Part shown: piece by piece, positions 18,792 through 50,307 of the stretch
How the letters are laid out: every line of letters starts with the position of its first letter
Numbering within the stretch: position 1 is the stretch's first letter
DNA from: an uncultured Maribacter sp.
GTDB lineage: Bacteria; Bacteroidota; Bacteroidia; Flavobacteriales; Flavobacteriaceae
DNA: 64,000 nucleotides
Direction of reading: 5' to 3'
NCBI RefSeq assembly: GCF_947496775.1
Contig: NZ_CANMDU010000001.1
Span: 930,001 to 994,000 of the forward strand
The notes under the pieces: model-generated
What the model was told of the DNA's origin: nothing
The model's database searches: none
Seen by the model: only the letters and a program-made list of their open reading frames with translations
Translations under genes and position numbers: made by a program

Positions 18792-20159
18792 TTACTTAGA
18801 ACCATATAACCTATTTACAGCTCTTAATATTAAACGGGCCCTACCTAATTCTGATTGTTTAATTTTTTTGTACGTTCTATTTAAATAGTATTCTACTGCA
18901 GCATTACCTTTAAATTCTTTCCTTGCTTTATATAAATCTAATGCAACTTGTAAATCTTGGGGCACATAAGAAACTCCTGTATATTCTTGAAGTAATTGTA
19001 AATTAAGAAAACCATATTCTTCCGTTGGCTCTAACACAGTACCCTCTCCATAATCATTCCATGTAACCAATTGTATAAAATCAGCAGCTTCATGATGCGT
19101 ATAATTAAGGGTTTCTACAAAAACATTCCCATTATCATGTGTTATACTCCAATCATGTTGCAGACCCCAACCTCCTTCTTCATAAAAACTGTTAAAGCCC
19201 GGATAACTACTTCCTACGGTTATTAAATTATTGCCTATATACTCATCATAGTAATATTCATGAGCAGTTAAATGATCTTCGGCCACCCACAAAAATTCTC
19301 CAGAAGCACTATTCCCCACCATGTTTTGGCTTGCCCATAAAGTTAAAAAATGAGGTTTTTCATTTATAGGAAAAACAGAAAAAATACTATCCCAATCTGC
19401 AGTACTAGTTATGCTGCTGGGGCCAAATAAAAACATAAGTTCTTCATTATTATGCTCTAGAAAATTAAGCTTATTAAAATACGTATCTTTAATATATTGA
19501 AAATCCATCGTTGCTGCCTCGACAATACTAGTTGCTAACCCCTCATTATATACCTCCTCCGCTGCTCTATCTTCATACATAATGGAAAATTCCATACCAA
19601 GATCATCTAAACGTTCCATAAAAGACTCCGTCGATTGCTTAATTAAATCGTAATCATGAACATCTTTACTACCGTACCAATCGAAAATAACTCCATCAAT
19701 TCCAGATAATTTCATCATTAAAAAATGATACTCCTGTAAATCTGGATCATTAGAAGAATACGGACCTATTATAGGATAGTAATAAGAAGCTATTTCTCTT
19801 TTCCCATCTGCATCAAGAATATCCGGATTCTTATTGGCCATAGTCCAGTGTTGCCCCCAATAGCCATCATATTCCACACTTTGAAACCAGGGCATATAGT
19901 GCGCATAAACTTTCTTAGGATTTTCTTTAACCACATCCATCCCAGAGATATCAACCACCCTACCTTCTTTAGTCATTTTTCTAAAAGCATCTTCCTCCTC
20001 TAAAACAGAAAGCAAAAGAGAGTCCGATACAATAGAGTCCACCGCAACACTAAACACCCCGTCATCCGAACTTTCGTTGTTAATCTTGTCCTTTTCGCAA
20101 GATTGAAAAAAAACAAAAAATACTAATAACCCAAAAACTAACTTTTTACAATACCTCAT
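18792..20159 (-). CDS. GH99/GH71-like glycoside hydrolase-domain lipoprotein
   Basis: A 455-residue exported lipoprotein; the lipobox FFQSC puts the lipidated cysteine at C21. From about residue 80 the sequence KVYAHYMPWFQSVEYDGYWG, then GIDGVIFDWYG and WNDYGEGTVLEP, matches the GH71/GH99-like (beta/alpha)8 barrel group. GH99 enzymes are endo-acting on alpha-mannosides with retention, and GH71 enzymes are endo-alpha-1,3-glucanases; many bacterial members are uncharacterised and substrate cannot be predicted from sequence. The C-terminal 70 residues are helical. The gene is single, convergent with the olsF-like gene, with no SusC/SusD partner nearby. The lipid anchor suggests it faces the periplasm or cell surface. 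Confidence 0.82.
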   Translation of the reverse strand: MRYCKKLVFGLLVFFVFFQSCEKDKINNESSDDGVFSVAVDSIVSDSLLLSVLEEEDAFRKMTKEGRVVDISGMDVVKENPKKVYAHYMPWFQSVEYDGYWGQHWTMANKNPDILDADGKREIASYYYPIIGPYSSNDPDLQEYHFLMMKLSGIDGVIFDWYGSKDVHDYDLIKQSTESFMERLDDLGMEFSIMYEDRAAEEVYNEGLATSIVEAATMDFQYIKDTYFNKLNFLEHNNEELMFLFGPSSITSTADWDSIFSVFPINEKPHFLTLWASQNMVGNSASGEFLWVAEDHLTAHEYYYDEYIGNNLITVGSSYPGFNSFYEEGGWGLQHDWSITHDNGNVFVETLNYTHHEAADFIQLVTWNDYGEGTVLEPTEEYGFLNLQLLQEYTGVSYVPQDLQVALDLYKARKEFKGNAAVEYYLNRTYKKIKQSELGRARLILRAVNRLYGSK

Positions 20160-27602: not shown

Positions 27603-27630
27603 AAAAAAAGCTGCACAAAATGCAGCTTTT
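27603..27630 (-). terminator. Terminator of the susCD-GH36-SSS-glpK-glpD operon
   Basis: Read on the minus strand, AAAAGCTGCA (27630-27621) and TGCAGCTTTT (27615-27606) form a 10-base stem with a 5-base loop, followed by T residues to 27603. It lies 23 bases after the glpD stop and marks the end of the putative galactosylglycerol operon. Confidence 0.88.
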
Positions 27631-27652
27631 AGCCCAAATTTAACACGGGGGA

Positions 27653-29302
27653 TTAAAATTCAGAATGTTTAATTACTTCTCTTTCTATGGTATTCCTAAA
27701 ATCATTTATCTGTTCTGTAGAATAGTTAAAAGAAGATTCGAAAGCCGTCAAAACTTTCTCAAGGTATTTGGTTACACTTTCTATATCAAAATACAACCTC
27801 CCCGTTCTTCTAATAAAGAAGTCCATTGGTGTTACAATCATTTCATTTTCCATACAAAAATCGAGTTCCGAGAGTATTAAATTCTCATTTATATCTACTC
27901 CGCTTTTTGTTTTAAAAATATCTATAATTTGCTCCGATTGTTTCCCATATGTAGTTGTTAAATACCAAGCGGTATACGAATCAAAGCCAAATTTATCTAA
28001 ATCTAGAGTTAAAGTTTTAATGTACTTTTTAACCTCTTTATATTTCTTCCAAGGGCCACCAATTAAAGGAATTTTATCGGTATGCACCTTTTTATAATAC
28101 TGATTGGTATCTTCTTCAAGTCTCTTTTGAACTTTATTTACCACCCTTTCTGCCATTTTTCTATAACCGGTAAGTTTACCCCCAGCCATACTAATTAAAC
28201 CTGAGTCCGAAACAAAGATTTCATCCTTTCTAGAAAGCTCTGAAGGTGATTTACCTTCTTCATGTATTAAAGGTCGTAAACCAGCCCAAGAAGAGGCTAT
28301 ATCTTTACGTTCCAAATTTACAGCAGGAAACATATTATTTATAGCATCTAATAAATAATCTGCATCTTCTACGGTTGTTCGTACATCGTTTTTATCCAAG
28401 GTATAGTTAGTGTCCGTTGTACCTGCATATGTAATTTTTCCCCTTGGAATAGCAAACATCATTCGGCCATCCGGAATATCAAAGTAAACAGATTGTTTTA
28501 ATGGTAATTTTTCTTTTGGAAAAACCAAATGCACTCCTTTTGTAAGATGTAATTGCTTACCATTCTTAGACTTATTAACTTCTCTAAGTTCATCTACCCA
28601 AGGACCAGCAGCATTAATCACAAATTTAGATGTGATACTATATGCATCTCCACTGATAGCATCAGTAACTTTTACTCCCGCTATCTGCTCCCCATCATAA
28701 ACAAAATCATTTACTTGCGTATAATTTAAAGGCGTACCGCCATAACTAATAGCCGTTTTTATGTTTTCTAAAGTAAGTCTTGCATCATCTGTTCTATACT
28801 CGGCATAGTACCCCGAACCTTTTAAAATCTGTTCTGGCAAAAGAGGTTCTAATTCTAACGTTTCTTCTTTATCCATCATCTTACGTTTATCATCCCCTTC
28901 AACATTGGCTAAAATATCATACACTTTAAGCCCTATAGAAGTCATCCATTCGCCATAAGAACCATTTTCTATTAATGGTAAGAGCATTTTTTCTGGTATA
29001 ACTAAATGCGGTGCCAGTTTATGTACAATAGCTCTTTCGGTTCCTACTTCTTTTACCAAAGACAATTCAAATTGCTTTAAGTATCGTAATCCTCCATGAA
29101 TAAGTTTCGAAGATTTACTACTAGTTCCTGAGGCAAAATCTCCTTTTTCAACTAAAGCAACTTTCATTCCTCTAGAAGATGCATCTAAAAGTATTCCTGC
29201 TCCTGTAATTCCTCCTCCAATAACCACTAAATCGTATTCTGTTTCTTTTAATTCCGAAACGATTTTACTTCTATTATGGTTTGTAAATTTTTTATTTTTC
29301 AT
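27653..29302 (-). CDS. glpD: FAD-dependent glycerol-3-phosphate dehydrogenase
   Basis: A 549-residue membrane-associated flavoenzyme that oxidises glycerol 3-phosphate to dihydroxyacetone phosphate and passes electrons to the quinone pool. The FAD-binding dinucleotide fold is DLVVIGGGITGAGILLDAS (about residues 25-43), followed by the family signature GTSSKSSKLIHGGLRYL. The substrate-domain motifs FVINAAGPWVDE and SMAGGKLTGYRKMAE are present, and the C-terminal helical cap domain is complete. It is the last gene of a minus-strand operon, 48 bases after glpK. In this operon its job would be to complete the route from released glycerol to glycolysis. Confidence 0.96.
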   Translation of the reverse strand: MKNKKFTNHNRSKIVSELKETEYDLVVIGGGITGAGILLDASSRGMKVALVEKGDFASGTSSKSSKLIHGGLRYLKQFELSLVKEVGTERAIVHKLAPHLVIPEKMLLPLIENGSYGEWMTSIGLKVYDILANVEGDDKRKMMDKEETLELEPLLPEQILKGSGYYAEYRTDDARLTLENIKTAISYGGTPLNYTQVNDFVYDGEQIAGVKVTDAISGDAYSITSKFVINAAGPWVDELREVNKSKNGKQLHLTKGVHLVFPKEKLPLKQSVYFDIPDGRMMFAIPRGKITYAGTTDTNYTLDKNDVRTTVEDADYLLDAINNMFPAVNLERKDIASSWAGLRPLIHEEGKSPSELSRKDEIFVSDSGLISMAGGKLTGYRKMAERVVNKVQKRLEEDTNQYYKKVHTDKIPLIGGPWKKYKEVKKYIKTLTLDLDKFGFDSYTAWYLTTTYGKQSEQIIDIFKTKSGVDINENLILSELDFCMENEMIVTPMDFFIRRTGRLYFDIESVTKYLEKVLTAFESSFNYSTEQINDFRNTIEREVIKHSEF

Positions 29303-29350
29303 AATCTATAAGCCTATTACCTAGCATTACAATGCAATAAGCTGAATTTT

Positions 29351-30838
29351 TTAATTAATTTCCCAGTTCATTGTACGTTTTACAGCTTTTTTCCAACCTT
29401 TATACAACTTCTTTCTTTGTTTTTTTGAGATTTCAGAGTTAAAAACTCTATCTACCGTTTTACTTTCTATAACATCCTTCTCTGTCCAAAGTCCTACAGT
29501 AATTCCTGCCATATATGCTGCTCCCATAGCTGTAGATTCTACGACCTTAGGTCTTACAACAGATTTGTTTAATATGTTGGACTGAAACTGCATTAGATAA
29601 TTATTTGCAGATGCCCCTCCGTCTACTTTTAATTTCTTTAGTTCTATTCCTGAATCGGCCTGCATTGCATCTAAAATATCTCTAGTCTGATAAGCCAAAC
29701 TATCTAAAGTAGCTTTAGTAACATGTTTAGCGCCTGTATCCCTAGTTAATCCAAAAATGGCTCCTCTGGCGTACATGTCCCAGTATGGCGCTCCCAAACC
29801 CGCAAAAGCTGGCACCACATATACAGGGTTTTCTACTTCTAAATCTAGAGCTAGCTTTTCTGAATGTCGGGCAGATTCTATCACTTTCATTTGATCCCGT
29901 AACCATTGCACAGCAGCACCTGCTATAAAAATACTTCCTTCTATGGCGTACTTAACCTCTCCATTTAATCCCCATGCAATTGTGGTAAGTAATCCATTTT
30001 TAGAATATTGCGGTTTTTTGCCAGTATTCATTAATAAAAAACAACCTGTACCGTAAGTATTTTTAGCATCTCCTTTTTTAAGACATGCCTGGCCAAATAA
30101 AGCAGCTTGTTGATCCCCCAAAATACTTGCAATTGGGATTTTAGTTCCATTATACTCAAACTCTCCAAAAATACTAGAGGAAGGTTTTACTTTGGGCAAC
30201 ATACTTATAGGAACCTCTAACTCTTTTAAAAGTTTTTTATCCCACGAAAGTGTATTTATATTATACATTAATGTTCTAGACGCGTTTGTATAATCTGTTA
30301 CATGATGCTCTCCTTTGGTTAAATTCCAAATTAACCAAGAATCTATCGTTCCAAAACGCAATTCTCCTTTTTCTGCCTTTTCTTTAGTTCCAGCAATATT
30401 TTCTAGAATCCAATTTATTTTAGTTCCCGAAAAATAAGAATCTATAACCAATCCCGTATTTTTTCTTATGTACTTGGTTAGCTTTCTTTTCTTTAACGTT
30501 TCGCAATAATCACTTGTTCTTTTATCCTGCCAAACAATAGCGTTATATACTGGTTTACCTGTAATACAATCCCAAACAATCGTTGTTTCTCTTTGATTAG
30601 TAATGCCTATTGCTTTTACCTTATTTAAAGGAAATGTAATATGCTCTAATATTTTATGAAGCACGCGTAATTGAGAATTTAATATATCCTGAGGATCGTG
30701 CTCCACCCAACCAGACTTTGGATATATCTGTTGAAATTCTTCCTGTTCTATTTGTATAATTTCTCCTTTTTCATCTATCAGTAAAGCTCTAGAGCTTGTA
30801 GTCCCTTGGTCCAAAGAAATTATATAGGATTTTTCCAT
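29351..30838 (-). CDS. glpK: Glycerol kinase
   Basis: A 495-residue cytoplasmic FGGY-family kinase forming sn-glycerol 3-phosphate from glycerol and ATP. The ATP/phosphate loop [13 protein letters not shown] is at residues 10-22, WVEHDPQDI and [10 protein letters not shown] are substrate-site blocks, and [11 protein letters not shown] and [13 protein letters not shown] are the C-terminal FGGY motifs. GLGAPYWD, typical of GlpK rather than xylulokinase, is present. It lies 19 bases downstream of the sodium symporter and 48 bases upstream of glpD. No glpF facilitator gene is in the cluster, which fits glycerol arising in the cytoplasm. Confidence 0.96.
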
Positions 30839-30857
30839 AACGAAACTATTTTAAATT

Positions 30858-32516
30858 TTAAAAAATGAAATACGTACTCAAAACTAATATGGTAATTAAA
30901 CCTCCTACTAAAATAGCGTACTTCCATGGTTGAATATTTACCTTCCCCGAATCTTGTAAAACAAAATCTGTGTCTCTCGGATATAGCTTTCCTATCGCTA
31001 ATAATACTATAATATTAACTACAAATAGAATACCCATTACATGTAAAAAATGAGGATAAGCTTCTGCTTTAATTATACTTAATACTTTACCATCTGTTAT
31101 ACCATCTATTCCTGCTTGAACCAATGCCTCATTTACAAAATAAGGACTTAACACAAACTGACTAATTAAATACGTAACAACTCCAAAGACCAATACAATT
31201 TTTGCTCCCAAAGCAGGTACTCTTTTGGTATATAACCCAATAATTACTACTGCAAAAATTGGGACACTTAAACTACCTAACATTACTTGAATGTAGCTAA
31301 ACAATCCATCGGGCGCATTACTAATAAATGGAGCTATTGTCATGGATACTAAAGCTAAAATAGTTCCAAATATTTTTCCTGCCTTTACTGTTTGTATCTC
31401 CGAAGCATCCTTTTTAAAGAATTGCTTATACAAATCAAAACCAAATAAAGTTACACTACTATTTAACAAGCTATTGAAAGAACTTAATACTGCACCGAAA
31501 AGAACTGCCGCAAAAAAGCCCATAAATGCCGGTGGTAAAACTGTTCTTACTAAAGTCGGGTATGCTAAGTCTGCATTGGTTAATTCTCCTTTAAAAAGAT
31601 GCCAAGCAATAACCCCTGGTAATACTACCACTATAGGGATAAGAAATTTTACAAGAGCAGCTAGAATAACCCCTTTTTGACCCTCCGCTAAATTTTTAGC
31701 TCCAAAAACACGCTGCATGATAGCTTGGTTAGTTCCCCAATAATATATCTGAGCCAACATCATCCCGGTAAAGATAGTGCCAACGGGAATTGAGGAATCT
31801 ACTCCTCCTGTTAGATTAAATTTTTCCGGATTACTCTCCCAAAGTGTATTAACTCCTGACAAAATAGTACCATCTTCTGCTATCGCCATTAATCCAAAAA
31901 TGGGTATCGCTATACCCCCAATTAATAATCCTATAGCATTTATTAAATCGGAAACAGCTACTGCCTTTAAACCTCCAAAAATGGCATAAACAGAACCAAT
32001 TAAACCAATACTCCAAACACATACCCATATAGTTGCACCCTCTGACAGGCCTAATAAGGTAGGTAAATTGAACATTGTACTAAAGGCCAAAGAACCAGAA
32101 TATAGTACTGTTGGTAATAAAACAAGGCCATAGGCTACTAAAAACAAAACAGACATTATCGTTTTTGTTTTTTTATCAAATCTATTTTGAATAAACTCAG
32201 GTATGGTAGTTATACCTCCTCTCATATACTTTGGAAGAAAGAAAATTGCTGTTGCAATCATTGCAATCGCCGCCAATGTTTCCCAAGCCATTACCAATAT
32301 TCCTTCTGTAAATGCTTGCCCATTTAATCCTACAATTTGCTCTGCAGATAAATTAGTTAATAACAATGACCCCGCAATTGTTATAGCCCCTAAACTTCTT
32401 CCTCCTAGGTAATAACCATCCGCTGTTTTTTCATTGGTTTTTCTTGATGCATACCAAGCAATGACTGCTACTAAAACCGTAAATCCAACAAAAGAAATAA
32501 TGGATAACATTCCCAT
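30858..32516 (-). CDS. SGLT-type sodium:solute symporter
   Basis: A 552-residue inner-membrane transporter of the SSS family with about 14 hydrophobic helices. It is close to the sugar branch (vSGLT/YidK): NLSAEQIVG at 55-63, IPEFIQNRFDKK, YYWGTNQAIMQR and the K in AALVKFLIP. Compared with vSGLT from memory, the galactose contacts N64, Q69, E88, Y263, K294 and Q428 have counterparts here, while S91 is Ala (A82) and N260 is Gln. This would suit galactose or a galactose-containing glycoside. It lies 19 bases from both the GH36 gene upstream and glpK downstream. The likely role is sodium-driven uptake of an intact galactoside; galactose or glycerol itself cannot be excluded. Confidence 0.9.
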   Translation of the reverse strand: MGMLSIISFVGFTVLVAVIAWYASRKTNEKTADGYYLGGRSLGAITIAGSLLLTNLSAEQIVGLNGQAFTEGILVMAWETLAAIAMIATAIFFLPKYMRGGITTIPEFIQNRFDKKTKTIMSVLFLVAYGLVLLPTVLYSGSLAFSTMFNLPTLLGLSEGATIWVCVWSIGLIGSVYAIFGGLKAVAVSDLINAIGLLIGGIAIPIFGLMAIAEDGTILSGVNTLWESNPEKFNLTGGVDSSIPVGTIFTGMMLAQIYYWGTNQAIMQRVFGAKNLAEGQKGVILAALVKFLIPIVVVLPGVIAWHLFKGELTNADLAYPTLVRTVLPPAFMGFFAAVLFGAVLSSFNSLLNSSVTLFGFDLYKQFFKKDASEIQTVKAGKIFGTILALVSMTIAPFISNAPDGLFSYIQVMLGSLSVPIFAVVIIGLYTKRVPALGAKIVLVFGVVTYLISQFVLSPYFVNEALVQAGIDGITDGKVLSIIKAEAYPHFLHVMGILFVVNIIVLLAIGKLYPRDTDFVLQDSGKVNIQPWKYAILVGGLITILVLSTYFIF

Positions 32517-32535
32517 ATATTATAAGTTTAAGAGG

Positions 32536-34296
32536 TTATTTTTTTAAAATTACTATTCCGCATGAAGGAACTTCCAACGACAAAACACCTTTAATTAAAT
32601 GTACTTTTTCAGTACGTACTATAACTCCCTGGCAGTTAAAAATAGTACAATGATACATGCCAAAATCATCTTTATTATTTATAATTAATTCATTTTCTAT
32701 TTTTCCATTTAAAAAATGAATTGTTTTACTACCATTATCTAAGTTAGCTATTACATTGTCATAAACACCGATGATAGTAGTATTTCCTTTAATAGTCCTT
32801 TTTATTGGATAGTTAGCTAATGGCTTAGAGGGAATAAAAATTCCTTCCATAAAAGTATCTGCATTATCATTCCAATATTGGGTATAAAATGCAATCATTT
32901 TTTTCTCTTCTTCCGAAGCCTTAGTTAAGAAAATAGATAACTGCGGCACTCCAAATAGTGTATTTATTAATTGCAATGCTGCTATTTCTACAGGTTCATC
33001 CTTATGCCACGTAACCATATCGGAATGCGGTGCGGTATTACCACACAACATTTTAATATCGGCAATTCTTATTCTGTTCATAGTAGCATCACCAGGACAA
33101 TCAAAAGCTCTAAACATATTACCATATTTACGCATTGCGGGTCCTGTATATTTCTGACGAAACTCAATAAAAACCTCTGGGTTTATTTCTTGTAATGCCC
33201 TTGCAACATCTGTTAAAAGGCAATCTACAGCTGCATTTATAGATGCATAATCTCTTCCATCTCCTTTATGAGTAGGTGTATCTACATACAATCTAAAATC
33301 GTCAATAAAATCTAATTTAAACCCATCTAAATTCCACTCTTTTAATGCTTTTGAATAAATATTTATAAGATATTCTCTTACTTCAGGATAACGTGGATCA
33401 AATACCGGAGCCCACCGGTGGTTTTCTGTTAAGAATTTCCCTTTAAATTTTTTATAAGCTTTTGATTTTTTTCCACAAAAAGGAACTGAATACCATAATG
33501 CAATCTTCATTCCTGTTGCATGAACTTGGGCTACATATTCTTTCATATTAGGAATACGATCTGGTTCCCAGTCACCCGTATAATCATACCCCCTATTATT
33601 ATCATTAGTTTGCCAACCATCATCTATGATAACAGCTTTATACCCTAACTCATAAGCCATTTTACATTCTTCTAACAATACATCGCAGTCTAAATCTTGA
33701 TGAAATTGATACCATGTAGAATATAAAGGCATTTTAGCAATATCGGGTACATGTGTAGGTTTTAAAGCTTCAAACTCTTCCCACCATCTAGAAACATCTT
33801 TTAAACTCTCTGAAAAATGAATTTTTCTATAGTCTAAGCGAATTTTAGTATTAAAATATTTTATAGGATAGTTTTGTTCTATAAAAAAAGTAATGTGACA
33901 ATAAAAGTTATTATCCTCTTCTCTTATTCTTGCATTTAACTCTAATTTATTAATGGCATTTGAACATGCAAAAGTTAAAACATTAGAATCATCATGACCA
34001 AATAAATTAATAACTGGGGCATCTATAGAAATTCTGGATTCCATATGATCTAACTCCCAATCTGCCTGAATTCTTTTATTATAATCTGTTGTTGGCTTCC
34101 AAACTCCTTTAACATTAATTGCTGGAACTTTCCACTCTAAAGTTATAGGTTTAGGGTTTACTTCTATTTCTGAACGTATTTGTAAATTGTATTCTAAAAT
34201 TCCATCAACATCTTTTACTTTCACCAATGACACCTCTATGGGTTGCTCTAATCCTTTAACATTTATATCTTCTATTAGGCTAGCATTTGTAATCAT
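32536..34296 (-). CDS. GH36-like alpha-galactosidase, cytoplasmic
   Basis: A 586-residue retaining glycoside hydrolase of the GH36/clan GH-D type. N-terminal beta-sandwich (about 1-175), then a TIM barrel with the recognisable blocks MPLYSTWYQFHQDL, KAVIIDDGWQT, MKIALWYSVPF and DGFKLDFIDDF, in which D329 is the predicted nucleophile; RAFDCPGDATMNR supplies the candidate acid/base (D399 or D403). A C-terminal beta domain ends the protein. It is shorter than classical GH36 enzymes of about 700 residues. There is no signal peptide, so the substrate must be imported intact. Its place between an SGLT-type symporter and glpK/glpD suggests an alpha-galactosyl-glycerol substrate, although raffinose-type sugars are possible on family grounds. 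Confidence 0.88.
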   Translation of the reverse strand: MITNASLIEDINVKGLEQPIEVSLVKVKDVDGILEYNLQIRSEIEVNPKPITLEWKVPAINVKGVWKPTTDYNKRIQADWELDHMESRISIDAPVINLFGHDDSNVLTFACSNAINKLELNARIREEDNNFYCHITFFIEQNYPIKYFNTKIRLDYRKIHFSESLKDVSRWWEEFEALKPTHVPDIAKMPLYSTWYQFHQDLDCDVLLEECKMAYELGYKAVIIDDGWQTNDNNRGYDYTGDWEPDRIPNMKEYVAQVHATGMKIALWYSVPFCGKKSKAYKKFKGKFLTENHRWAPVFDPRYPEVREYLINIYSKALKEWNLDGFKLDFIDDFRLYVDTPTHKGDGRDYASINAAVDCLLTDVARALQEINPEVFIEFRQKYTGPAMRKYGNMFRAFDCPGDATMNRIRIADIKMLCGNTAPHSDMVTWHKDEPVEIAALQLINTLFGVPQLSIFLTKASEEEKKMIAFYTQYWNDNADTFMEGIFIPSKPLANYPIKRTIKGNTTIIGVYDNVIANLDNGSKTIHFLNGKIENELIINNKDDFGMYHCTIFNCQGVIVRTEKVHLIKGVLSLEVPSCGIVILKK

Positions 34297-34330
34297 TCTC
34301 TCTCTTATTTAGATTTTTAAAGGGTATAAA

Positions 34331-34358
34331 GCCAAGCAGTTTTTATATACCGCTTGGC
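34331..34358 (-). promoter_or_regulatory. Intra-operon hairpin between susD and the GH36 gene
   Basis: GCCAAGC (34331-34337) and GCTTGGC (34352-34358) form a perfect 7-base stem around a 14-base AT-rich loop, in the 91-base gap between susD and the GH36 gene, the longest gap in the operon. The T run after it on the minus strand is weak, so partial termination or 3' protection of the susCD mRNA is more likely than full termination. Confidence 0.55.
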
Positions 34359-34387
34359 CATACCAACTCAACAACTCAAACTAAAAA

Positions 34388-35977
34388 TTAATATCCTGGG
34401 TTTTGCTTTAAATTAGGGTTAGCATCCAATTCAGAACTTGGTATCCAAACTAATTCATGTTTATTTGCTTGGAATACACCACCACTTAAAGATTTTGGGT
34501 TGCTCCCGTGTAAAGAATTTGCACCTAGGTAATCATCTGCTAATCCCCAACGAACTAAGTCAAAGAAACGATGACCCTCTCCTGCTAATTCCATTGCACG
34601 TTCATCTATTATCGCAGTGCGCATATCATCTTGACTTAGGTTTAATGGAGTTACTGGTGTTAATTCTGCTCTTTCTCTTACCATGTCTACATATATTGCA
34701 GCCTCTGAAGTCATATTGTCCTCATTTAAAGCTTCTGCAAGCATTAGTAATACATCTGCATATCTAATTATTCTCCAGTTATTTCCAACATTAGTTCCTA
34801 AAAAATCTACCTGATCTCTTGTTCCTAAATCCATTCCTGAATATTTTTTTCCAAAAATGGGTTCTACTCCAGCGGCTGTAGCAATTGTAATATCTCCAGC
34901 AACAGTACCTCCATCTTCATCTGTAGTATCTCCTAAATCCTCTATAAATGGCAAACCTCCATAACCCGTAGCTCCAGGATAATCGTAAACTAAAGTTTCA
35001 TTTCTTCTTACTACATCATTATTAGCTTCGAATAAATCTTTAAGCCATGGGTTAATTACATGTCCTTTATCCGGAGATTTAGATGGGGTAGCATAATCAA
35101 TATGATAATTACCCATAGTACCCGTACCAGGAATATCTGTTCCCCAAATAAAAGTGGTTTGTCCTAAAAATTGTAATTCAAAAACCGACTCTTGGTTATT
35201 TTCATTTACATCAGAAAAGTTATCTCCGTATGCTTCCGCAGGTAATAAGCTGTATTTACCTATTAAAGTTGCTAATGTAGTTCTTGCATTAGTCCAATCT
35301 TTCATATATAAATAACTCTTCCCTTTTAAAGCTGTTGCAGCTCCAGAAGTTGGTCTACCAGCATTATCTCCTTCCCAGGTTTCTGGTAACATAGCTTCTG
35401 CCATTTCTAAATCTGCTATTATTTGTGCCCAGATTACTGAAGGCTCTGCCTGATCCACTAAAAGATTATCTAAATCTGGTAATTCTGTAATTAATGGTAC
35501 GCTACCATAAAGCGTTGTTAAATACCAATAATCAAAAGCTCTTAAAAAATAAGCTTGCCCTATAAGACCATTACGAACCGTTTCATCTGCTATTTGCTCT
35601 TCGCCAATGTTAATTATAACATTGTTACAGCGTGCAATAGATTTGTATAGTTGTTGCCAAGGCTCTGTTGCCCAACGATCTCCGGGGTTACCTAAGTGAG
35701 TAGCCATTGCTGTGTTACTTCCAAAAGGAAAAACATTAAATTCATCAGACCTTTGCATTGCTCCGGTATGTATAATTCTACCCCAGAAAAACGTATCTGT
35801 TATTGGGTGGAATGCTCCATTAACTGCTGATTCCACCTCTGCAACTGAACTACCAAAATTAGCAGTAGAAGTTGCATTGTTGTTAGATTGATCTAGCAAC
35901 TCTTCTGAACACCCACCTAGCATTATTGCGACAGTAAGTGTTACTATCATCGGATTTAATTTGAATATCTTTTTCAT
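34388..35977 (-). CDS. SusD/RagB family substrate-binding lipoprotein
   Basis: A 529-residue outer-membrane lipoprotein. The lipobox GGC places the lipid on C23; it is followed by S-E-E, which fits the flavobacterial surface-export signal. The SusD architecture is clear: N-terminal AEVESAVNGAF and TPR-like helices (GLIGQAYFLRAFDYWYLTTLYG), then the C-terminal SusD domain (NNWRIIRYADVLLMLAEALNE, DERAMELAGEGHRFFDLVRWG, ending LKQNPGY). It lies 17 bases downstream of its SusC partner and should form the lid of that transporter. Within this operon its ligand may be a small glycoside rather than a polysaccharide, which would be unusual for the family. Confidence 0.95.
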   Translation of the reverse strand: MKKIFKLNPMIVTLTVAIMLGGCSEELLDQSNNNATSTANFGSSVAEVESAVNGAFHPITDTFFWGRIIHTGAMQRSDEFNVFPFGSNTAMATHLGNPGDRWATEPWQQLYKSIARCNNVIINIGEEQIADETVRNGLIGQAYFLRAFDYWYLTTLYGSVPLITELPDLDNLLVDQAEPSVIWAQIIADLEMAEAMLPETWEGDNAGRPTSGAATALKGKSYLYMKDWTNARTTLATLIGKYSLLPAEAYGDNFSDVNENNQESVFELQFLGQTTFIWGTDIPGTGTMGNYHIDYATPSKSPDKGHVINPWLKDLFEANNDVVRRNETLVYDYPGATGYGGLPFIEDLGDTTDEDGGTVAGDITIATAAGVEPIFGKKYSGMDLGTRDQVDFLGTNVGNNWRIIRYADVLLMLAEALNEDNMTSEAAIYVDMVRERAELTPVTPLNLSQDDMRTAIIDERAMELAGEGHRFFDLVRWGLADDYLGANSLHGSNPKSLSGGVFQANKHELVWIPSSELDANPNLKQNPGY

Positions 35978-35994
35978 CTTTATATTTATAAGAA

Positions 35995-38900
35995 TTAAAA
36001 TTTGGCTTGTACTCCAAACATGAATGTTCTAGCATTAGGATATGCTCTTGCATCTAAACCTCTACCCAATAATGGATTTACTTGATCTCTTAAACCAGGA
36101 ACCCCTGTATTTCTATTAGCACGACCACCATTCGTAGAAGATACATCTGGGTCATAACCGCTATAATCTGTTAATACAAATACATTCTGAATATTTAAAG
36201 ACAAACGAATGTTTTTAACCCACTCTAACCCAAAAGAACCTTCTTTAAAATTATAACCTATGTCTATATTTTTAAGCCTAAAATAGGACCCATCTTCTAC
36301 AAAGAAAGAGGATGGAGCTTTGTTACCAGCGGCATCTGAAATAGACGCTCTAGGAATATTAGTATCTGTATTAGAAGGTGTCCATGAATTTAAAACCTCT
36401 GACAGCTTACCACCATCTTGCCATAATATACTGTAGTATCTACTTAGGTTGTAAATTTCATTCCCTTGCACTCCATTAAAACTTAATCCAAAATCAAAGT
36501 TTTTATATTCTCCATTGAAATTTATCCCATAGGTAAAATCAGGAGTAGGATCTCCGATATTTGTAATATCATCTGCTGTAATTTGCCCATCTCCATTAAC
36601 ATCTATACGAACAAAATCTCCAGTAGCAGGATCCACTTTATTTTCTACCTTATAACCATAGAAGGCACCAATAGGTTGATTTGCTCTAGTTGCATTTACT
36701 ACACGTAAATCTTCATCAATTGCAGGGCCTAAAATTGTATTAGGTATATCTCCTGCTTCACTCTTTAAATTAAAAGAGAAGTTAGTTCCTGCCGTGAAAG
36801 TAAAATCTCCATCTGTTTTACGGTAAGTTAAATCCCATTCTAAACCTTTATTAATTAAAGTTCCTGCATTTCTAGTAACTGGTAAACTAACACCACTAGT
36901 AGAAGGAACATTAATTGCTACTAAAACGTCTTCTATATCCTTAGTATAATAGTCCATAGAGAAAGTCATTCTATTATCTAAGAACCCTAAATCTACACCA
37001 ACATCAAACGTTTTTGTTGTTTCCCATACTAAGCTTGGATCTGCCAAAGTAGTTTGTGCTAAACCATTTGCTAAACCACCACCAAAAGAAGTGTTAGATG
37101 CATTAGCTGCAAAAACCGCTTGTGTAGGGTAAAAAGTATCTGGATATGAACCTAACTCCCCGTAAGAAGCACGAAGTTTAAAATAATTTACGGTTTCAGA
37201 TTTCCAAAAATCTTCATCACTTATATTCCAACCAGCAGAGAAAGAAGGGAAATAACCTACTCTATTGTCTTCTGCAAAACGAGAAGAAGCATCTCTTCTT
37301 AAGGTTGCAGAAAATAAATATTTACTATCATACCCATAATTAAATCTTCCAAAGTAAGACTGTAACGCTGCATTATTATTTTGTCCTAATAACACCAATT
37401 GATCACTAGATGGTAATGCTCCTACATTTCTAATTACATTAGACGGTGTTCCTTGACCAAAAACACCATTACTTTTTTGAGTTTCTTTAAAATAAGTATA
37501 TCCTAATACAGCAGAAACCTTATGCGCATTGAACTCTTTTTCATAAGAAATAGTTGGCTCCACTTGTACATTTACATCTTCTTGTCTATGATCCGTAAGA
37601 TCATTTTCTGTATTTACATTTAGTACTGCATCTACAGTACTCATAAAGTATGTTGGCGTAAATTGATATGAGTTTCTACTAGTATAATCAATACCAAAGT
37701 TTACAGATGCTTTTAAACCTTCTAAAATTTCATAATCTAATTTTGCACTACCAAAAATAGTTCTTGTAGTAACTTGATTATCTTCTAGGGTTGCTAAAGC
37801 GTATTGATTAACACCACCTGGTCCATGTATTGCTGAGGAAGGTCCTTCAAAGCCACCATCATTAGCATCATTTCTAAATGCTAAAGTTGGCGCAGAAGCT
37901 CCATCCCAACCATACCAGTTGTTTTCTTGTAATTTACCCTCTGTTATACCTAAAGATTCGGTTAAAGTAAATTTCCCAAAATCAAATCTACTGTTTAATC
38001 TAAAGTTAATTCTTTTAAAACCAGAACCCACTAAAATACCATCTTGGTTAAAATAGTTTCCCGAAGCGAAATAGGAAGAATTTTCTCCTCCTCCAGATAC
38101 AGAAACCCCTATTTCCTCAACAATACCAGATTTTAAAGATTCGTCTTGCCAATCGGTATCTACACCATTCCAAGTTACAGAATTTGCCTCTCCATCATTT
38201 ACAAAACGTTGGTTTAAATAATCTGCATACTGTTCTCCGTTAATATAATCTAATTTTTTGCTTGGAGTGTCAAAACCAACTCTAGTATTTAAAGTAACTT
38301 CTGTAGCCCTATTTTTTTGACCATGAGTAGTTTTAATAAGAACCACACCATTGGCTGCTCTAGCACCATAAATAGCAGATGCAGCTGCATCTTTTAATAT
38401 TGAAATATCTTGAATATCGTTTGCATTAACATAATCCATATTATCTACAAAAAGACCATCTACAACAAATAAAGGCGATGCATTACTTAAAGAGTTTACC
38501 CCTCTAATAAATACGTTGGCCCTACCACCTGGCTGGCCACCAAAACTTTCTACCTGAATTCCCGATAGTTTTCCTTGTAATGCTGTAGTCGGATTACTAG
38601 CTACTACATTTACAATAGCATCTTTTTTAATTGTAGATACAGAACCAGTAAGCTCTCTTTTATTAGACGTACCATAACCAATAATAACCACCTCACTTAA
38701 TGCCTGCGCATCTGCTTGCATTGTAACATTTAAAGAAGATTTTCCGTTTAAAGCTATTTCCTGAGTAGCATACCCGATATAACTAAAAACAAGAATGCCA
38801 TCTTGAGCAACATCTGCAATAGCATAATTACCATCAAAATCGGTTGTTACACCGTTAGTAGTCCCCTTTACCACAATGTTAACCCCTGGTAAAGGGCCAT

Positions 38901-39006
38901 CAGCGTCCGAGACAGTACCCGAAACCTGTGTAGTTTGCGCAATAGAAATGTAACTGAATAACATCATTGCCAAACTCATAAACTGTTTGAGTGTTTTTCT
39001 GTTCAT
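35995..39006 (-). CDS. SusC/RagA family TonB-dependent transporter
   Basis: A 1003-residue outer-membrane beta-barrel. Signal peptide (MNRKTLKQFMSLAMMLFSYI...AQ), then a CarboxypepD-regulatory-like domain (GPLPGVNIVVKGTTNGV, DFDGNYAI), the plug with NVFIRGVNSLSNASPLFVVD and AASAIYGARAANGVVLIKT, and a barrel ending in MFGVQAKF with a terminal Phe. At 1003 residues it is on the short side for SusC. It is the first structural gene of the putative galactosylglycerol operon, 212 bases downstream of the GntR regulator gene, with a -7 box at 39101-39108. It needs TonB-ExbBD energy supplied from elsewhere in the genome. Confidence 0.96.
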   Translation of the reverse strand: MNRKTLKQFMSLAMMLFSYISIAQTTQVSGTVSDADGPLPGVNIVVKGTTNGVTTDFDGNYAIADVAQDGILVFSYIGYATQEIALNGKSSLNVTMQADAQALSEVVIIGYGTSNKRELTGSVSTIKKDAIVNVVASNPTTALQGKLSGIQVESFGGQPGGRANVFIRGVNSLSNASPLFVVDGLFVDNMDYVNANDIQDISILKDAAASAIYGARAANGVVLIKTTHGQKNRATEVTLNTRVGFDTPSKKLDYINGEQYADYLNQRFVNDGEANSVTWNGVDTDWQDESLKSGIVEEIGVSVSGGGENSSYFASGNYFNQDGILVGSGFKRINFRLNSRFDFGKFTLTESLGITEGKLQENNWYGWDGASAPTLAFRNDANDGGFEGPSSAIHGPGGVNQYALATLEDNQVTTRTIFGSAKLDYEILEGLKASVNFGIDYTSRNSYQFTPTYFMSTVDAVLNVNTENDLTDHRQEDVNVQVEPTISYEKEFNAHKVSAVLGYTYFKETQKSNGVFGQGTPSNVIRNVGALPSSDQLVLLGQNNNAALQSYFGRFNYGYDSKYLFSATLRRDASSRFAEDNRVGYFPSFSAGWNISDEDFWKSETVNYFKLRASYGELGSYPDTFYPTQAVFAANASNTSFGGGLANGLAQTTLADPSLVWETTKTFDVGVDLGFLDNRMTFSMDYYTKDIEDVLVAINVPSTSGVSLPVTRNAGTLINKGLEWDLTYRKTDGDFTFTAGTNFSFNLKSEAGDIPNTILGPAIDEDLRVVNATRANQPIGAFYGYKVENKVDPATGDFVRIDVNGDGQITADDITNIGDPTPDFTYGINFNGEYKNFDFGLSFNGVQGNEIYNLSRYYSILWQDGGKLSEVLNSWTPSNTDTNIPRASISDAAGNKAPSSFFVEDGSYFRLKNIDIGYNFKEGSFGLEWVKNIRLSLNIQNVFVLTDYSGYDPDVSSTNGGRANRNTGVPGLRDQVNPLLGRGLDARAYPNARTFMFGVQAKF

Positions 39007-39077
39007 AAGAATAAATTGTTAATAGATTAATTTATAATAAGTTAGTTTTTTGAGCAGTTGAAAATCAATTTATTGTG

Positions 39078-39108
39078 CTATGATAGTCTATGCTACTATG
39101 CAAATATA
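39078..39108 (-). promoter_or_regulatory. Candidate promoter/operator ahead of susC (putative galactosylglycerol operon)
   Basis: On the minus strand TATATTTG (39108-39101) matches the -7 box and leaves a leader of about 95 bases to the susC start. Immediately downstream, read on the plus strand, CTATG occurs three times, at 39078-39082, 39088-39092 and 39096-39100. The repeats would overlap the transcription start and could be an operator for the adjacent GntR regulator. A good TTG -33 element is not seen. Confidence 0.4.
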
Positions 39109-39218: not shown

Positions 39219-40232
39219 CTATAATGAATTTCTTTTAATAAGGTTAGAGGGCACTATTATCTGCGTCTTATTTTGAAGTTTAATATGATTTGCTGCCTTT
39301 TTTGCCATTTCTTTAAAATCTGTAGAAATTGTTGTGATACCACCAAATACTATTTCTTTGACAACGTGATCATTATGAGAAAGCACCCCAATATGTTTTC
39401 CTATAATATATTCATTATTTTTTGCATCTCTTAAAACTTCCCATAGAAATGTATCACTTATAAAGAAATATAACGTCCCCTTTTTAATAGACCCAGATTT
39501 ATACTTCTCTTCAACCTTTCCTATTACATTATAGTCGGCACAAAACCTATTAAACGCATTTAAAACTCCCAAAGGATAATCCTTATCGTCTTTATAAAAT
39601 AATATAAACTTCTTATAATTTGATATTTCCGGCAATAGCTCCACAAGTTTGCTATAAGTAGAATCTTCGAACTCCTGAGAGATATAAGAATAGGTATTAT
39701 CTAACGTTAAATACCTATCTATTATTAAAATTTTATTTGGATTAATAGATTCTATTAAAGGTCGTATACTAGGGTTCGGTATAGGAGCAACTACATACAT
39801 ACCGTATTTTCCTCTAATAGTATTAAATATACTTTCAAAAACGGACTCATTATTATGATGAAAAAATAAGTCTATTTGATATCTTTTTCCTAATTCTTTC
39901 CTAAAAGCATTATAAAATTCCTCTTGAAACCGCTGCAGAGAAAATAAAAGTAAAGCAATCTTTAAAGTAACTTTAGTCTCTTTACTAACAATGAAATATC
40001 CTTTTAATTTTTTAGATTCTACTAAACCTCTCTCTTTTAATTCCTCATATGCCTTAACAATTGTTTTTCGAGCATATCCCAAATCTTGTACCATTGCATT
40101 TATAGATGGTAATTTATCGCCGACTTGTAAAATACCAGAATCTATAGCCTCTAATATTCCATTCACAAGCTGTTCATGTTTAGAAAGAGAATTAATTTTT
40201 TGAAGACTTTTTATTTTAGAAATAAGAGACAT
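39219..40232 (-). CDS. GntR-type transcriptional regulator with LacI-like effector domain
   Basis: A 337-residue cytoplasmic regulator. Residues 15-80 are a GntR winged helix (ILEAIDSGILQVGDKLPSIN, YARKTIVKAYEELKERGLVE). From about residue 90 the protein switches to a periplasmic-binding-protein/LacI-like sensor (KIALLLFSLQRFQEEFYNAF, KYGMYVVAPIPNPSIRPLIE, VLSHNDHVVKEIVFGG), a fusion used by Bacteroidota to sense sugars. It lies directly upstream of the susC-glpD operon on the same strand and divergent from a second susC operon, so it could control either. I think the alpha-galactoside operon is the target because of the shared direction and the CTATG repeats, but this is inference. Confidence 0.88.
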   Translation of the reverse strand: MSLISKIKSLQKINSLSKHEQLVNGILEAIDSGILQVGDKLPSINAMVQDLGYARKTIVKAYEELKERGLVESKKLKGYFIVSKETKVTLKIALLLFSLQRFQEEFYNAFRKELGKRYQIDLFFHHNNESVFESIFNTIRGKYGMYVVAPIPNPSIRPLIESINPNKILIIDRYLTLDNTYSYISQEFEDSTYSKLVELLPEISNYKKFILFYKDDKDYPLGVLNAFNRFCADYNVIGKVEEKYKSGSIKKGTLYFFISDTFLWEVLRDAKNNEYIIGKHIGVLSHNDHVVKEIVFGGITTISTDFKEMAKKAANHIKLQNKTQIIVPSNLIKRNSL

Positions 40233-46971: not shown

Positions 46972-49900
46972 ATGAAAAAAAAGTACACTCTTGTCAACCT
47001 CATAATATGCTGTTGTTTATTACTATGTATAAATTGTAATAAACAAGAAAAAATAACGAATAAAAACAATTCTCATCATAAAGAAAATCAGCTCTTCAGC
47101 CTCATTTCTCCGAAAAAAAGCAACATAAATTTCAATAATCATATTGATGAAAATTTTAAAAATTTCTTTGCCGTTTTTAATTACGTTTATAATGGTGCCG
47201 GTGTTGCTATAGGAGACATTAATAACGATGGCTTATCGGATATATATTTTGTGGGCAATGAAGTCCCCAATAAGTTATATTTAAACAAAGGTGATTTTGA
47301 ATTTGAAGATATATCTACAAGTGGAAATGTTAGCAACGAAAAAGGCTGGCACAATGGAGTTGTAATGGCAGATGTAAATGGAGATAATTTACAAGACATT
47401 TACGTTTGTCGAGGAGGGTATAATGATTTAGACAAGGATAGAGAGAATTTACTATATATTAACCAGGGAGATAATACATTTAAAGAAGAAGCAAAAAAAT
47501 ACGGCATTAATGATAAAGGATATTCCATTATGGCTTCTTTTTTTGATTTTGATAAGGATAACGATTTAGATCTATACGTTACCAATAGACCAAACACTTT
47601 CTTCTTGGGATACCAACAAGTTCTTCAAGGAAAACAAAAGCAAGATGATTTATTCCGGGATAAATTTTATGAAAATGTAAATGGCTCATTTGTAGAAATT
47701 GGCCTTAATGCTGGCATTAAAAATAATTTTGGTTATGGTTTGGGTATCGCTACCACCGATATAAATAGCGATGGAAATGCTGATATATATGTTGCTAACG
47801 ATTATTTAGAGAGAGATTATTTATATATAAACCAAGGGAACAAAAAATTTAAAGATGAACTTAAAACTCGCTTCAATCATATTCCTTTCTATGCAATGGG
47901 TGTAGATGTGGTAGATTTTAATAATGATGGTTTTGAAGACATAATGCAATTAGAGATGCGCCCTGAAGACTATGAACGTAGCAAAACTACTATGGCTTCT
48001 ATGAATACCAAACTTTTTAAAGACATGACCTCAAACGGCTTTCATTACCAATACATGCACAATAACTTACAACTAAACAGAGGCAATGGGGTTTTTAGTG
48101 ATATTGCCCAATTCGCAGGTGTTTCTAAAACCGATTGGAGTTGGTCTTGTTTAGGTAGCGATTTTGATAATGATGGCTATAGAGACTTATATATTACAAA
48201 CGGTTTTAAAAGAGATATTTGGGATAAGGACGCAAATGCTGCCTTTAGAAAATTCATGCAAAGTGCCCAAGCAAGAAAAAACTCTAATGCCCAAAATGCG
48301 CAACATATAATTAATTTATTTAAAGAAAATAAAATACCTAATTACATATATAAAAACAATGGAAATCTATCCTTTAGCAAAAAGATTAAAGCCTGGGGCG
48401 TAAATCATGATAGTTTTTCCAGTGGTGCTGCAGTAGCAGATTTGGATAATGACGGAGACTTAGATTTAATTGTAAATAACATAAATGACACCGCATTTAT
48501 TTACCAAAATAATGCCGAAAAATTAAATAATAACTTTATAAAATTAAAATTAAATGGACCTAAAAATAATACCACAGGTTTAGGTGCCAAAATAACAATA
48601 TATCATAATAAAAAAATTCAATTTCATGAATTTAAAACCGTTAGAGGATATTTATCTTCGGTAGAACCATTAATTCATTTTGGGTTAAAAAAAAATAAAG
48701 AAATAGATAGCCTAAGAATAGTTTGGACAGATGGTAAAGAACAAATGATTACAAAACTAAAAACAAACCAATTGGTAGCCATAAGCTATAACGAGGCCAA
48801 TATTCCAAGCACTTCAGAAACAAAAATCCCTACCCTACTATCCGAGAAAACAGACCACTTTTTAAAAACTCCCTTTATTCATAAAGAAAAAATATATAAC
48901 GACTTTAAAGACCAAATTTTACTGCCTCATAAATTATCGCAAGATGGCCCTTGCATAGCCGTTTCTGACATTAATAATGATGGGTTAGAAGATTTTTATA
49001 TTGGAGGCGCTTCTGGACAAGCTGGTGCCTTCTATAAGCAAACGAAAAATGGTGTTTTCAATAAACTAGATCAAAAAACCTTTTTAACTGATAAAGAAAA
49101 AGAAGATGTCGGAGCTATATTTTTTGATGCCGACGGAGATAATGACCAAGATTTATATGTAGCAAGCGGTGGTTATGAGTTTGCTATAAATGATTCTCTG
49201 TTACAAGATAGGTTGTACCTCAACAACGGTAAAGGCATTTTCACTAAATCTAAAAAATTGCCTAAAATTCATGAAAGTAGTTCTACTGTAATTCCGTTAG
49301 ACTTTGATACCGATGGCGATTTAGATTTGTTTATTGGGGGTAGATTAATTCCTAAGAATTATCCCTTCACCCCAAACAGCTATATCTTAAAAAATGAAAA
49401 TGGAAAATTTATAGATGTAACTTCTATCGTAGCTCCTGAACTTTCAAAAATTGGCATGGTTACTTCTGGCACTTGGAATGATATTGATGGGGATAATAAT
49501 CGGGAACTTATCTTGGTTGGAGAATGGATGCCTATTTCTATTTTTAAAATAGATAATGGGGTTTTTAAAAACATAACCAAATCTTATAACTTACAAGACT
49601 CAAATGGCTGGTGGAATAAAATAATAGCTACTGATTATGATAAAGACGGAGATACCGATTTTATTGTTGGTAATTTGGGTTTAAATTATAAGTTTAGAGC
49701 AAGTAAAAAAAGTCCTTTCTTAATCTATGCAAATGATTTTGACAAAAACGGAACGAACGATATTTTTCTCGCTAAAAAATACAAAGACCGAGAAGTTCCT
49801 ATTCGCGGACTTCAATGTACTTCAGAACAAATGCCCATTATTGCAAACAAATTTAAAAGCTATTCCGAATTTGCTCGAGCGGATATAAAAGAGATTGTGG

Positions 49901-50307
49901 GCGATAGTTTAAAATCTGGAAGTGTATACCACGCCAATGAATTTGCTAGTATTATTTTAGAAAATAATAATGGAAAGTTAGCCCCCAAAAAACTTCCAAG
50001 TGAGGCTCAATTTTCAGTAATAAATGGCATTATTGTAGACGATTTTAATGGCGATACCATTCTAGATATTTTGGTTGCTGGCAATAAATTTGAAACAGAA
50101 ATAGAAACCACCAGAGCAGATGCATCATTAGGTTCTTTATTGCTCGGAACTAAGAAGGGAATATTTAAACCTATTTCTTATTTGCAAAGTGGGTATTTTG
50201 CTCCTTATAATATAAAAGACATTCAAAAAATTACTATTGGCAAAAATAAGACTGGGATTATTACTGGCATTAATAATAGTACAATAAAGTTTCATATCTT
50301 AAATTAA
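46972..50307 (+). CDS. FG-GAP/VCBS-repeat lipoprotein with central ASPIC/UnbV domain
   Basis: A 1111-residue exported lipoprotein (lipid on C22 after a Cys-rich leader). It carries fourteen calcium-binding D-x-D/N-x-D-G motifs: seven (DINNDGLSD, DVNGDNLQD, DFDKDNDLD, DINSDGNAD, DFNNDGFED, DFDNDGYRD, DLDNDGDLD) before a central ASPIC/UnbV domain (VRGYLSSVEPLIHFGL), and seven after it (from DINNDGLED to DFNGDTILD). This suggests two seven-bladed integrin-like beta-propellers bridged by the ASPIC domain. Related proteins are common beside SusCD operons and may bind glycans or adhere to surfaces; no enzymatic residues are apparent. It has its own transcript, after a terminator, and converges on the hybrid regulator gene. 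Confidence 0.9.
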   Translation: MKKKYTLVNLIICCCLLLCINCNKQEKITNKNNSHHKENQLFSLISPKKSNINFNNHIDENFKNFFAVFNYVYNGAGVAIGDINNDGLSDIYFVGNEVPNKLYLNKGDFEFEDISTSGNVSNEKGWHNGVVMADVNGDNLQDIYVCRGGYNDLDKDRENLLYINQGDNTFKEEAKKYGINDKGYSIMASFFDFDKDNDLDLYVTNRPNTFFLGYQQVLQGKQKQDDLFRDKFYENVNGSFVEIGLNAGIKNNFGYGLGIATTDINSDGNADIYVANDYLERDYLYINQGNKKFKDELKTRFNHIPFYAMGVDVVDFNNDGFEDIMQLEMRPEDYERSKTTMASMNTKLFKDMTSNGFHYQYMHNNLQLNRGNGVFSDIAQFAGVSKTDWSWSCLGSDFDNDGYRDLYITNGFKRDIWDKDANAAFRKFMQSAQARKNSNAQNAQHIINLFKENKIPNYIYKNNGNLSFSKKIKAWGVNHDSFSSGAAVADLDNDGDLDLIVNNINDTAFIYQNNAEKLNNNFIKLKLNGPKNNTTGLGAKITIYHNKKIQFHEFKTVRGYLSSVEPLIHFGLKKNKEIDSLRIVWTDGKEQMITKLKTNQLVAISYNEANIPSTSETKIPTLLSEKTDHFLKTPFIHKEKIYNDFKDQILLPHKLSQDGPCIAVSDINNDGLEDFYIGGASGQAGAFYKQTKNGVFNKLDQKTFLTDKEKEDVGAIFFDADGDNDQDLYVASGGYEFAINDSLLQDRLYLNNGKGIFTKSKKLPKIHESSSTVIPLDFDTDGDLDLFIGGRLIPKNYPFTPNSYILKNENGKFIDVTSIVAPELSKIGMVTSGTWNDIDGDNNRELILVGEWMPISIFKIDNGVFKNITKSYNLQDSNGWWNKIIATDYDKDGDTDFIVGNLGLNYKFRASKKSPFLIYANDFDKNGTNDIFLAKKYKDREVPIRGLQCTSEQMPIIANKFKSYSEFARADIKEIVGDSLKSGSVYHANEFASIILENNNGKLAPKKLPSEAQFSVINGIIVDDFNGDTILDILVAGNKFETEIETTRADASLGSLLLGTKKGIFKPISYLQSGYFAPYNIKDIQKITIGKNKTGIITGINNSTIKFHILN

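Follow-up and report, generated by a model that had tools for sequence, protein, structure and literature searches.

A putative operon for uptake and degradation of an alpha-galactosyl-glycerol, possibly floridoside or isofloridoside, in Maribacter sp. and other Flavobacteriaceae

A 64,000-nucleotide stretch of the genome of an uncultured Maribacter sp. (assembly GCF_947496775.1, contig NZ_CANMDU010000001.1, positions 930,001 to 994,000; hereafter the window) carries on its minus strand a six-gene operon that, in our judgement, probably serves to import and break down an alpha-galactosyl-glycerol, with floridoside, isofloridoside or both as the likeliest substrate. These two compounds are the best substrate candidates; the choice rests on chemistry and habitat, and the sequence cannot separate one from the other. 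We file the locus as a Bacteroidota SusCD glycoside-uptake locus working like the lac operon.

In the proposed pathway, the SusCD pair would capture the alpha-galactosyl-glycerol and carry it through the outer membrane, an SGLT-type symporter would move the intact glycoside together with sodium across the inner membrane, and a GH36-like enzyme would hydrolyse it in the cytoplasm to galactose and glycerol. GlpK and GlpD would then convert the glycerol into dihydroxyacetone phosphate, and the galactose would enter the Leloir pathway via galK, which lies outside the operon in this genome. A GntR/LacI-type regulator would bind a conserved operator and keep the susC promoter repressed as long as no sugar ligand is present, with binding, ligand and sign of control all presumed.

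Operon layout, symporter and GH36-like enzyme

The original prediction had placed six minus-strand open reading frames in the order susC-susD-GH36-symporter-glpK-glpD. When coordinates and strand were checked against the list of open reading frames, all six were found at the claimed positions, and the recomputed intergenic gaps (17, 91, 19, 19 and 48 bases) were identical to those given earlier. The terminator claimed after glpD was borne out as well, as a hairpin followed by T residues; a pattern-based scanner did not list it, and returned promoter-like sites only at chance level. The features are as follows:

35995..39006, minus strand: susC, TonB-dependent outer-membrane transporter (TIGR04056, 806 bits, cut-off 368)
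34388..35977, minus strand: susD, predicted surface-binding lipoprotein (SusD_RagB, 4.6e-40, over the Pfam cut-off)
32536..34296, minus strand: predicted cytoplasmic GH36-like alpha-galactosidase (Melibiase over cut-off, GH36 folds first, conserved motifs)
30858..32516, minus strand: SGLT-type sodium/solute symporter that would import the galactoside uncleaved (NF007790, 719 bits, cut-off 401)
29351..30838, minus strand: glpK, glycerol kinase (TIGR01311, 716.6 bits, cut-off 590)
27653..29302, minus strand: glpD, FAD-dependent glycerol-3-phosphate dehydrogenase (DAO and DAO_C over the Pfam cut-offs)
27603..27631, minus strand: Rho-independent terminator (fold -13.4 kcal/mol, z -3.12, and its sequence)

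At the family level, assignment of the GH36-like enzyme is rather weak (Pfam Melibiase 33.7 bits versus a cut-off of 27), and a sequence search of the PDB gave a best match of only 2.9e-07. Its predicted structure (pLDDT 83) places solved GH36-type folds first, with a galactosaminidase and SpAga leading: Foldseek ranks 1-22 are GH36-type alpha-galactosidases and galactosaminidases, some of which we take to be GH36 members, and rank 23 is MYORG. In the structure alignments the DDGW motif of the enzyme coincides with the DDGW of solved alpha-galactosidases, and in three of five such alignments its KLDF motif is matched by KWDM or KLDF. D399, the candidate acid/base Asp, lies beyond the point where the alignments to solved enzymes end. 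Both motifs and D399 are invariant in all 24 aligned rows, the window row included. The enzyme thus shares the fold and the DDGW and KxD motifs of the GH36 alpha-galactosidases AgaA, SpAga and galV of Anoxybacillus, from which it differs in being shorter (586 aa) and part of a separate marine group; identity to the best-matching folds is 13-16%.

The earlier claim that this enzyme has no signal peptide was upheld by the best 11-residue hydrophobicity mean within the first 45 residues, which is 0.86 for the window enzyme and 0.27-1.75 in 16 orthologues from other genomes (57-69% identical), in contrast to 2.42-3.28 in seven secreted paralogues (42-46% identical). A hydrophobic N-terminus is therefore absent from the window enzyme and all 16 orthologues and present in 7/7 paralogues, which means that the substrate must enter the cytoplasm intact. 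By family scan and N-terminus check, the window operon encodes a single glycosidase, the one without a signal peptide, and none that is secreted; the imported molecule must therefore be small. On the basis of its fold and motifs, and because it lacks a signal peptide, we infer that the enzyme would cleave an alpha-galactosyl-glycerol to galactose and glycerol.

The N-terminus of SusD reads as lipoprotein-like. The best solved relative of the symporter is 2xq2 (1.7e-63), annotated as a sodium/glucose cotransporter, which we take to be vSGLT. At the positions that we assume to contact galactose in vSGLT, the symporter keeps Q69, E88, Q428, N64 and Y263, and differs at S91 (Ala) and N260 (Gln); position 294 is Lys, as opposed to Ala in the aligned 2xq2 chain, presumably a K294A mutant. 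The window operon has no other recognised inner-membrane transporter.

Three side observations concern the operon and its surroundings. Compared with one Maribacter operon (L083), susC and susD are 95% and 94% identical but the GH36 gene 78% and the symporter 74%, and compared with another (L082) the symporter is 91% but susC 71% identical; such uneven, gene-by-gene identity suggests recombination inside the operon. A large ASPIC/UnbV FG-GAP protein is encoded at 46972-50307 (plus strand) as part of a divergent susCD operon in the window, and a gene of this kind lies inside the GH36 run itself in 54/80 of the related loci described below. A GH99-like domain protein (18792-20159, minus strand; Pfam 35.7 bits versus a cut-off of 33) has no link to the operon.

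Glycerol and galactose genes beside the enzyme

Related enzymes were surveyed in 299 Flavobacteriaceae genomes and in 395 genomes of the phylum. In the family survey 23 genomes had a match, 17 of them to the cytoplasmic type (this genome included) and six to a secreted paralogue only, while the phylum survey gave seven, among them this genome and two more from the family survey. Counts of named loci (L numbers) refer to the best 80 of 166 confirmed places, which share some genomes with the family survey; 11 of these loci are interrupted by contig ends. All but one belong to Flavobacteriaceae (genera include Maribacter, Zobellia, Aquimarina, Flavivirga, Algibacter, Tenacibaculum and Dokdonia), and the remaining one is a Saprospiraceae metagenome-assembled genome. 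A symporter is found in the GH36 gene run of 75/80 loci, in 70 of them at 60% identity or more.

Glycerol genes recur in these runs: glpK and/or glpD are present in 37/80 loci, as separate genes in 15, as a fused GlpK-GlpD protein of 1054-1091 residues in 21, and as glpD only in one. The fusion was verified by family models in L037 (4182-7349), with glycerol kinase at residues 2-495 and the dehydrogenase from residue 504. Their presence follows the identity of SusC to that of the window, with glp genes in 22/23 loci above 60%, 13/27 at 40-60% and 2/30 with lower identity or no match. No glpK or glpD stands beside the enzyme in any of the seven secreted-paralogue loci, in the stretches fetched. 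Counted by genome, glpK occurs in 17/17 with the cytoplasmic enzyme, 1/6 with the secreted paralogue only and 120/282 without the cytoplasmic enzyme (the 282 include those six); Fisher tests, which ignore relatedness and genome size, gave 1e-6 and 2e-4. In G152, a second genome of this genus, neither the enzyme nor glpK had a match at the thresholds used.

In the window genome glpK is the only close copy (the one other match is 24% identical), and so is glpD, whose one other match spans 53 residues; GlpD scores below the NCBIfam equivalog cut-off (334.6 versus 360 bits). The absence of glpF, noted earlier for the locus, proved true genome-wide: the single MIP gene, on another contig, reads NPARS at the second NPA box, which we take to be the AqpZ rather than the GlpF form, and the sole MIP channel looks like a water channel. 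The link drawn in the original prediction between glpK/glpD and glycerol released in the cell is thus strengthened by their recurrence beside the enzyme, by the 17/17 genomes and by their being the only close copies here.

Two further loci bear on glycerol metabolism. In a Flavobacterium locus without glpKD (L192), an NAD-dependent glycerol-3-phosphate dehydrogenase gene (868-1884) lies directly upstream of the regulator, and in L121 the gene in the same arrangement probably encodes such a dehydrogenase.

Galactose genes occupy a comparable place. A Leloir gene is part of the run in 21/80 loci, galE in 16 and galK and/or galT in five others, and the three galE proteins tested all exceeded the cut-off of the NCBIfam GalE model. 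Downstream of the enzyme or its symporter, L030, L031 and L040 carry galK, alone or together with galT. Both arms occur together in 12/80 loci, 11 with galE and fused GlpKD, plus L144 with glpD and galK. Counted by genome, galK is present in 17/17 with the cytoplasmic enzyme versus 147/282 others. Even L191, a distant locus of another family, combines a GH36 relative (48% identical) and symporter (34%) with a divergent galT-galE-galK cluster. As glycerol and galactose genes recur beside the enzyme, a molecule yielding both is the simplest common denominator.

Such a molecule could also be the galactolipid head group alpha-galactosyl-beta-galactosyl-glycerol, derived from digalactosyldiacylglycerol (DGDG); this head group includes both alpha-galactose and glycerol and occurs, as far as is known, in all algae. 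We nevertheless consider it an improbable substrate: a beta-galactosidase would be needed to free the glycerol, and neither this enzyme nor a lipase was found among the family-scanned operon and neighbour genes, a set that does not include every unlabelled gene of the 80 loci.

It is also conceivable, though unlikely, that the operon joins two general modules without a chemical link, namely a cytoplasmic alpha-galactosidase acting on common alpha-galactosides, melibiose for example, and the only glycerol genes of the cell. The single-copy state of glpK and glpD, which implies that they also serve general glycerol use, would agree with this, as would the fused GlpKD and separate glpK found outside GH36 loci and the 43/80 GH36 loci without glpK or glpD in the run. 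What speaks for a chemical link is that co-location recurs across many genera and layouts, both fused and split, that all 17 genomes with the cytoplasmic enzyme have glpK, and that Leloir genes occupy the same position.

The pathway put forward in the original prediction (import of the intact glycoside, cleavage by a cytoplasmic alpha-galactosidase and use of both products) is well supported by comparison, and a cross-genome comparison of gene order showed the operon to be widespread, with recurring glp and Leloir genes. Several observations, however, weigh against an alpha-galactosyl-glycerol as the common substrate. They include the 43 loci just mentioned, for which the glycerol half of the pathway finds no counterpart in the run. 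Lifestyle, genome size and relatedness may account for part of the 17/17 figure for glpK. The enzyme is 12-17% identical to the structurally matched alpha-galactosidases. Zobellia-type loci have other or no SusCD and an O-acetyltransferase (18/80), and their substrate may therefore vary; the run of L144 holds a GH13 alpha-amylase-family gene. Furthermore, the symporter and GlpKD also occur without the enzyme, as described in the next section.

In L028 (11023-11583) and in the 18 loci, the O-acetyltransferase gene adjoins GH36 and usually separates it from the symporter. Its best models are maltose and galactoside acetyltransferase, both below their cut-offs, and only one of the 18 loci (L100) also has glpKD.

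Loci without GH36, GlpK history and the regulator

Twenty glpK loci from outside the GH36 set were fetched for comparison. Four of them (L162, L163, L165 and L177) contain the symporter (70-72% identical to that of the window) and GlpKD but no GH36, and their genomes have no match to the enzyme, which adds to the points against our reading, since these two genes may have another purpose. Together with the galactose-contact residues kept from vSGLT, a comparison resting on our assumed residue list, they would fit a symporter that carries free glycerol or free galactose, the galactoside entering by some other way. We regard this as the least probable of the alternatives: the symporter is present in 38/43 GH36 loci without glp genes, it is the sole recognised inner-membrane transporter of the window operon and yet the enzyme is cytoplasmic, and two of the four loci keep galactose genes beside symporter and GlpKD. 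Specifically, L162 retains galE (80% identical) and L163 adjoins galK and galT, so the symporter still tracks galactose and glycerol genes there.

No glycosidase replacing GH36 was found among the scanned neighbours in L162, L163 and L177. L165 (3-9995) has its own MFS transporter; its symporter and fused GlpKD are preceded or accompanied by genes for a Gfo/Idh/MocA oxidoreductase, a 3-keto-disaccharide hydrolase and two proteins resembling xylose isomerase, and the stretch upstream (L195) encodes a putative GMC-type oxidoreductase, recognised by its N-terminus only. In this single case the set is a possible GH-free route to cleave a glycerol glycoside.

Fused GlpKD proteins, too, are found in non-GH36 loci, so the fusion is not specific to the GH36 system, which likewise counts against our reading. 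Without symporter or GH36, the fused protein adjoins an aldose epimerase in L166 and L167 (the latter also with a galE-like gene) and a malate:quinone oxidoreductase in L164.

GlpK trees, drawing on 29 stand-alone GlpKs from both strands, group the window GlpK with operon copies of Maribacter and Cellulophaga, outside the clade of fused proteins. A clade made up of exactly the operon GlpKs was rejected (p 4e-73), a grouping that omits nested non-operon rows; in the fairer test, a single origin of the operon GlpKs together with their nested non-operon kin was not rejected (p 0.45). Repeated, independent recruitment of glpKD into the operon, although it looked likely from the trees, is therefore not claimed, and this outcome, too, was counted on the opposing side of our interpretation. 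The split GlpK copies of Algibacter, Flavivirga and their kin nest within the fused clade, which suggests that the split GlpK and GlpD of these bacteria arose by later fission.

The six genes named in the original prediction stand, but the list had overlooked a regulator and an operator upstream of susC:

39219..40232, minus strand: winged-helix regulator of GntR type whose sugar-sensing domain is LacI-like, probably a repressor dedicated to this operon (Pfam GntR 41.6 bits, and model)
39076..39095, minus strand: predicted operator TAGCATAGACTATCATAGCA (direct repeat of TAKCATAG, 10-bp period)

The regulator gene shares the strand of susC and is located 212 bases upstream of it. Its model (pLDDT 86.7) finds LacI-family repressors and ribose-binding protein as best PDB folds, and the gene shares a same-strand run with GH36 in 55/80 loci, in one of them (L109) as just a 91-residue remnant. 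The operator sits in the regulator-susC gap, directly downstream of a TATATTTG box, which we take to be of the Bacteroidota promoter type. The window has one exact site, against a chance mean of 0.01 per window.

The direct repeat was spotted by eye and tested afterwards, on an 18-base core, in 57 regulator-operon gaps (the window and 56 loci). The core was found with three mismatches or fewer in 44/57 gaps and with six or fewer in 55/57, or 56/57 once L099 is corrected; there the site (one mismatch) had been hidden because the susC start was called too far 5'. Shuffled gaps, preserving base composition only and not dinucleotides, reach three mismatches or fewer in 0.04% and six or fewer in about 14%, and the weakest matches alone therefore mean little. 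Where the gap opens directly onto GH36, the operator is present in 5/6 loci (L084, L085, L102, L154 and L155); the exception is L109, which has no site and whose regulator is the remnant. A genome-wide search returned one exact site and two more with three mismatches, versus three sites in all for a reversed-pattern control. Perfect inverted repeats gave no element shared among the regulator-susC gaps. With a conserved operator and one exact site in the genome, the regulator looks dedicated to the operon, and glpK and glpD would fall under it.

Known systems and significance

The lac operon of Escherichia coli comprises a LacI sensor, a symporter, a cytoplasmic galactosidase and the O-acetyltransferase lacA. 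The window system resembles it in its LacI-like sensor domain, symporter and cytoplasmic galactosidase, and some relatives (the 18 loci above) also have an O-acetyltransferase gene reminiscent of lacA. It differs in the alpha linkage, the GH36-like fold, SusCD uptake, the GntR-type DNA-binding domain and the glycerol genes. With the polysaccharide utilization loci of Bacteroidota the operon shares adjacent susC and susD, a carbohydrate-active enzyme and one regulator; unlike them, it has no secreted or surface polysaccharide-cutting enzyme, and its target would be a small glycoside imported intact. A GH36 alpha-galactosidase within a carbohydrate utilization locus is also known from the beta-mannan locus of Bacteroides ovatus, where, however, it acts on galactomannan, and the sections of that report available to us make no mention of glycerol genes (PMC5094572).

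According to a report on galV of Anoxybacillus, floridoside and isofloridoside are the main photosynthetic product and osmolyte of red algae, and this characterised GH36 enzyme forms isofloridoside from galactose and glycerol by reverse hydrolysis, which places such chemistry within the reach of the GH36 family (PMC8509150). In a study of Zobellia on fresh macroalgae, a term search of the main text found no mention of GH36, glycerol, galactosidase, Palmaria or red algae (PMC9296495). A full-text search of the open-licence PMC literature yielded, among its top matches, no description of a bacterial floridoside operon or uptake/catabolic pathway.

A broader proposal, to which we give somewhat less than even credence, is that marine Flavobacteriaceae possess a widespread lac-like floridoside operon, with its own SusCD for a glycoside of 254 Da, a single operator bound by a GntR/LacI-type repressor, its own alpha-galactosidase group and often a fused GlpK-GlpD, and that this operon would be a main route returning red-algal photosynthate to the carbon cycle; a 3-keto-glycoside set next to the same symporter and GlpKD would seemingly have taken the place of the hydrolase in at least one relative (L165 and L195).

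If the interpretation of the window operon as an alpha-galactosyl-glycerol system is true, it would put names to genes for the bacterial use of floridoside or isofloridoside and provide a route for the consumption of a major seaweed metabolite. It would also supply a diagnostic metagenome marker, a regulator that responds to sugar and a GlpK-GlpD enzyme with two functions, and would mean that even a very small glycoside can have a SusCD pair of its own.

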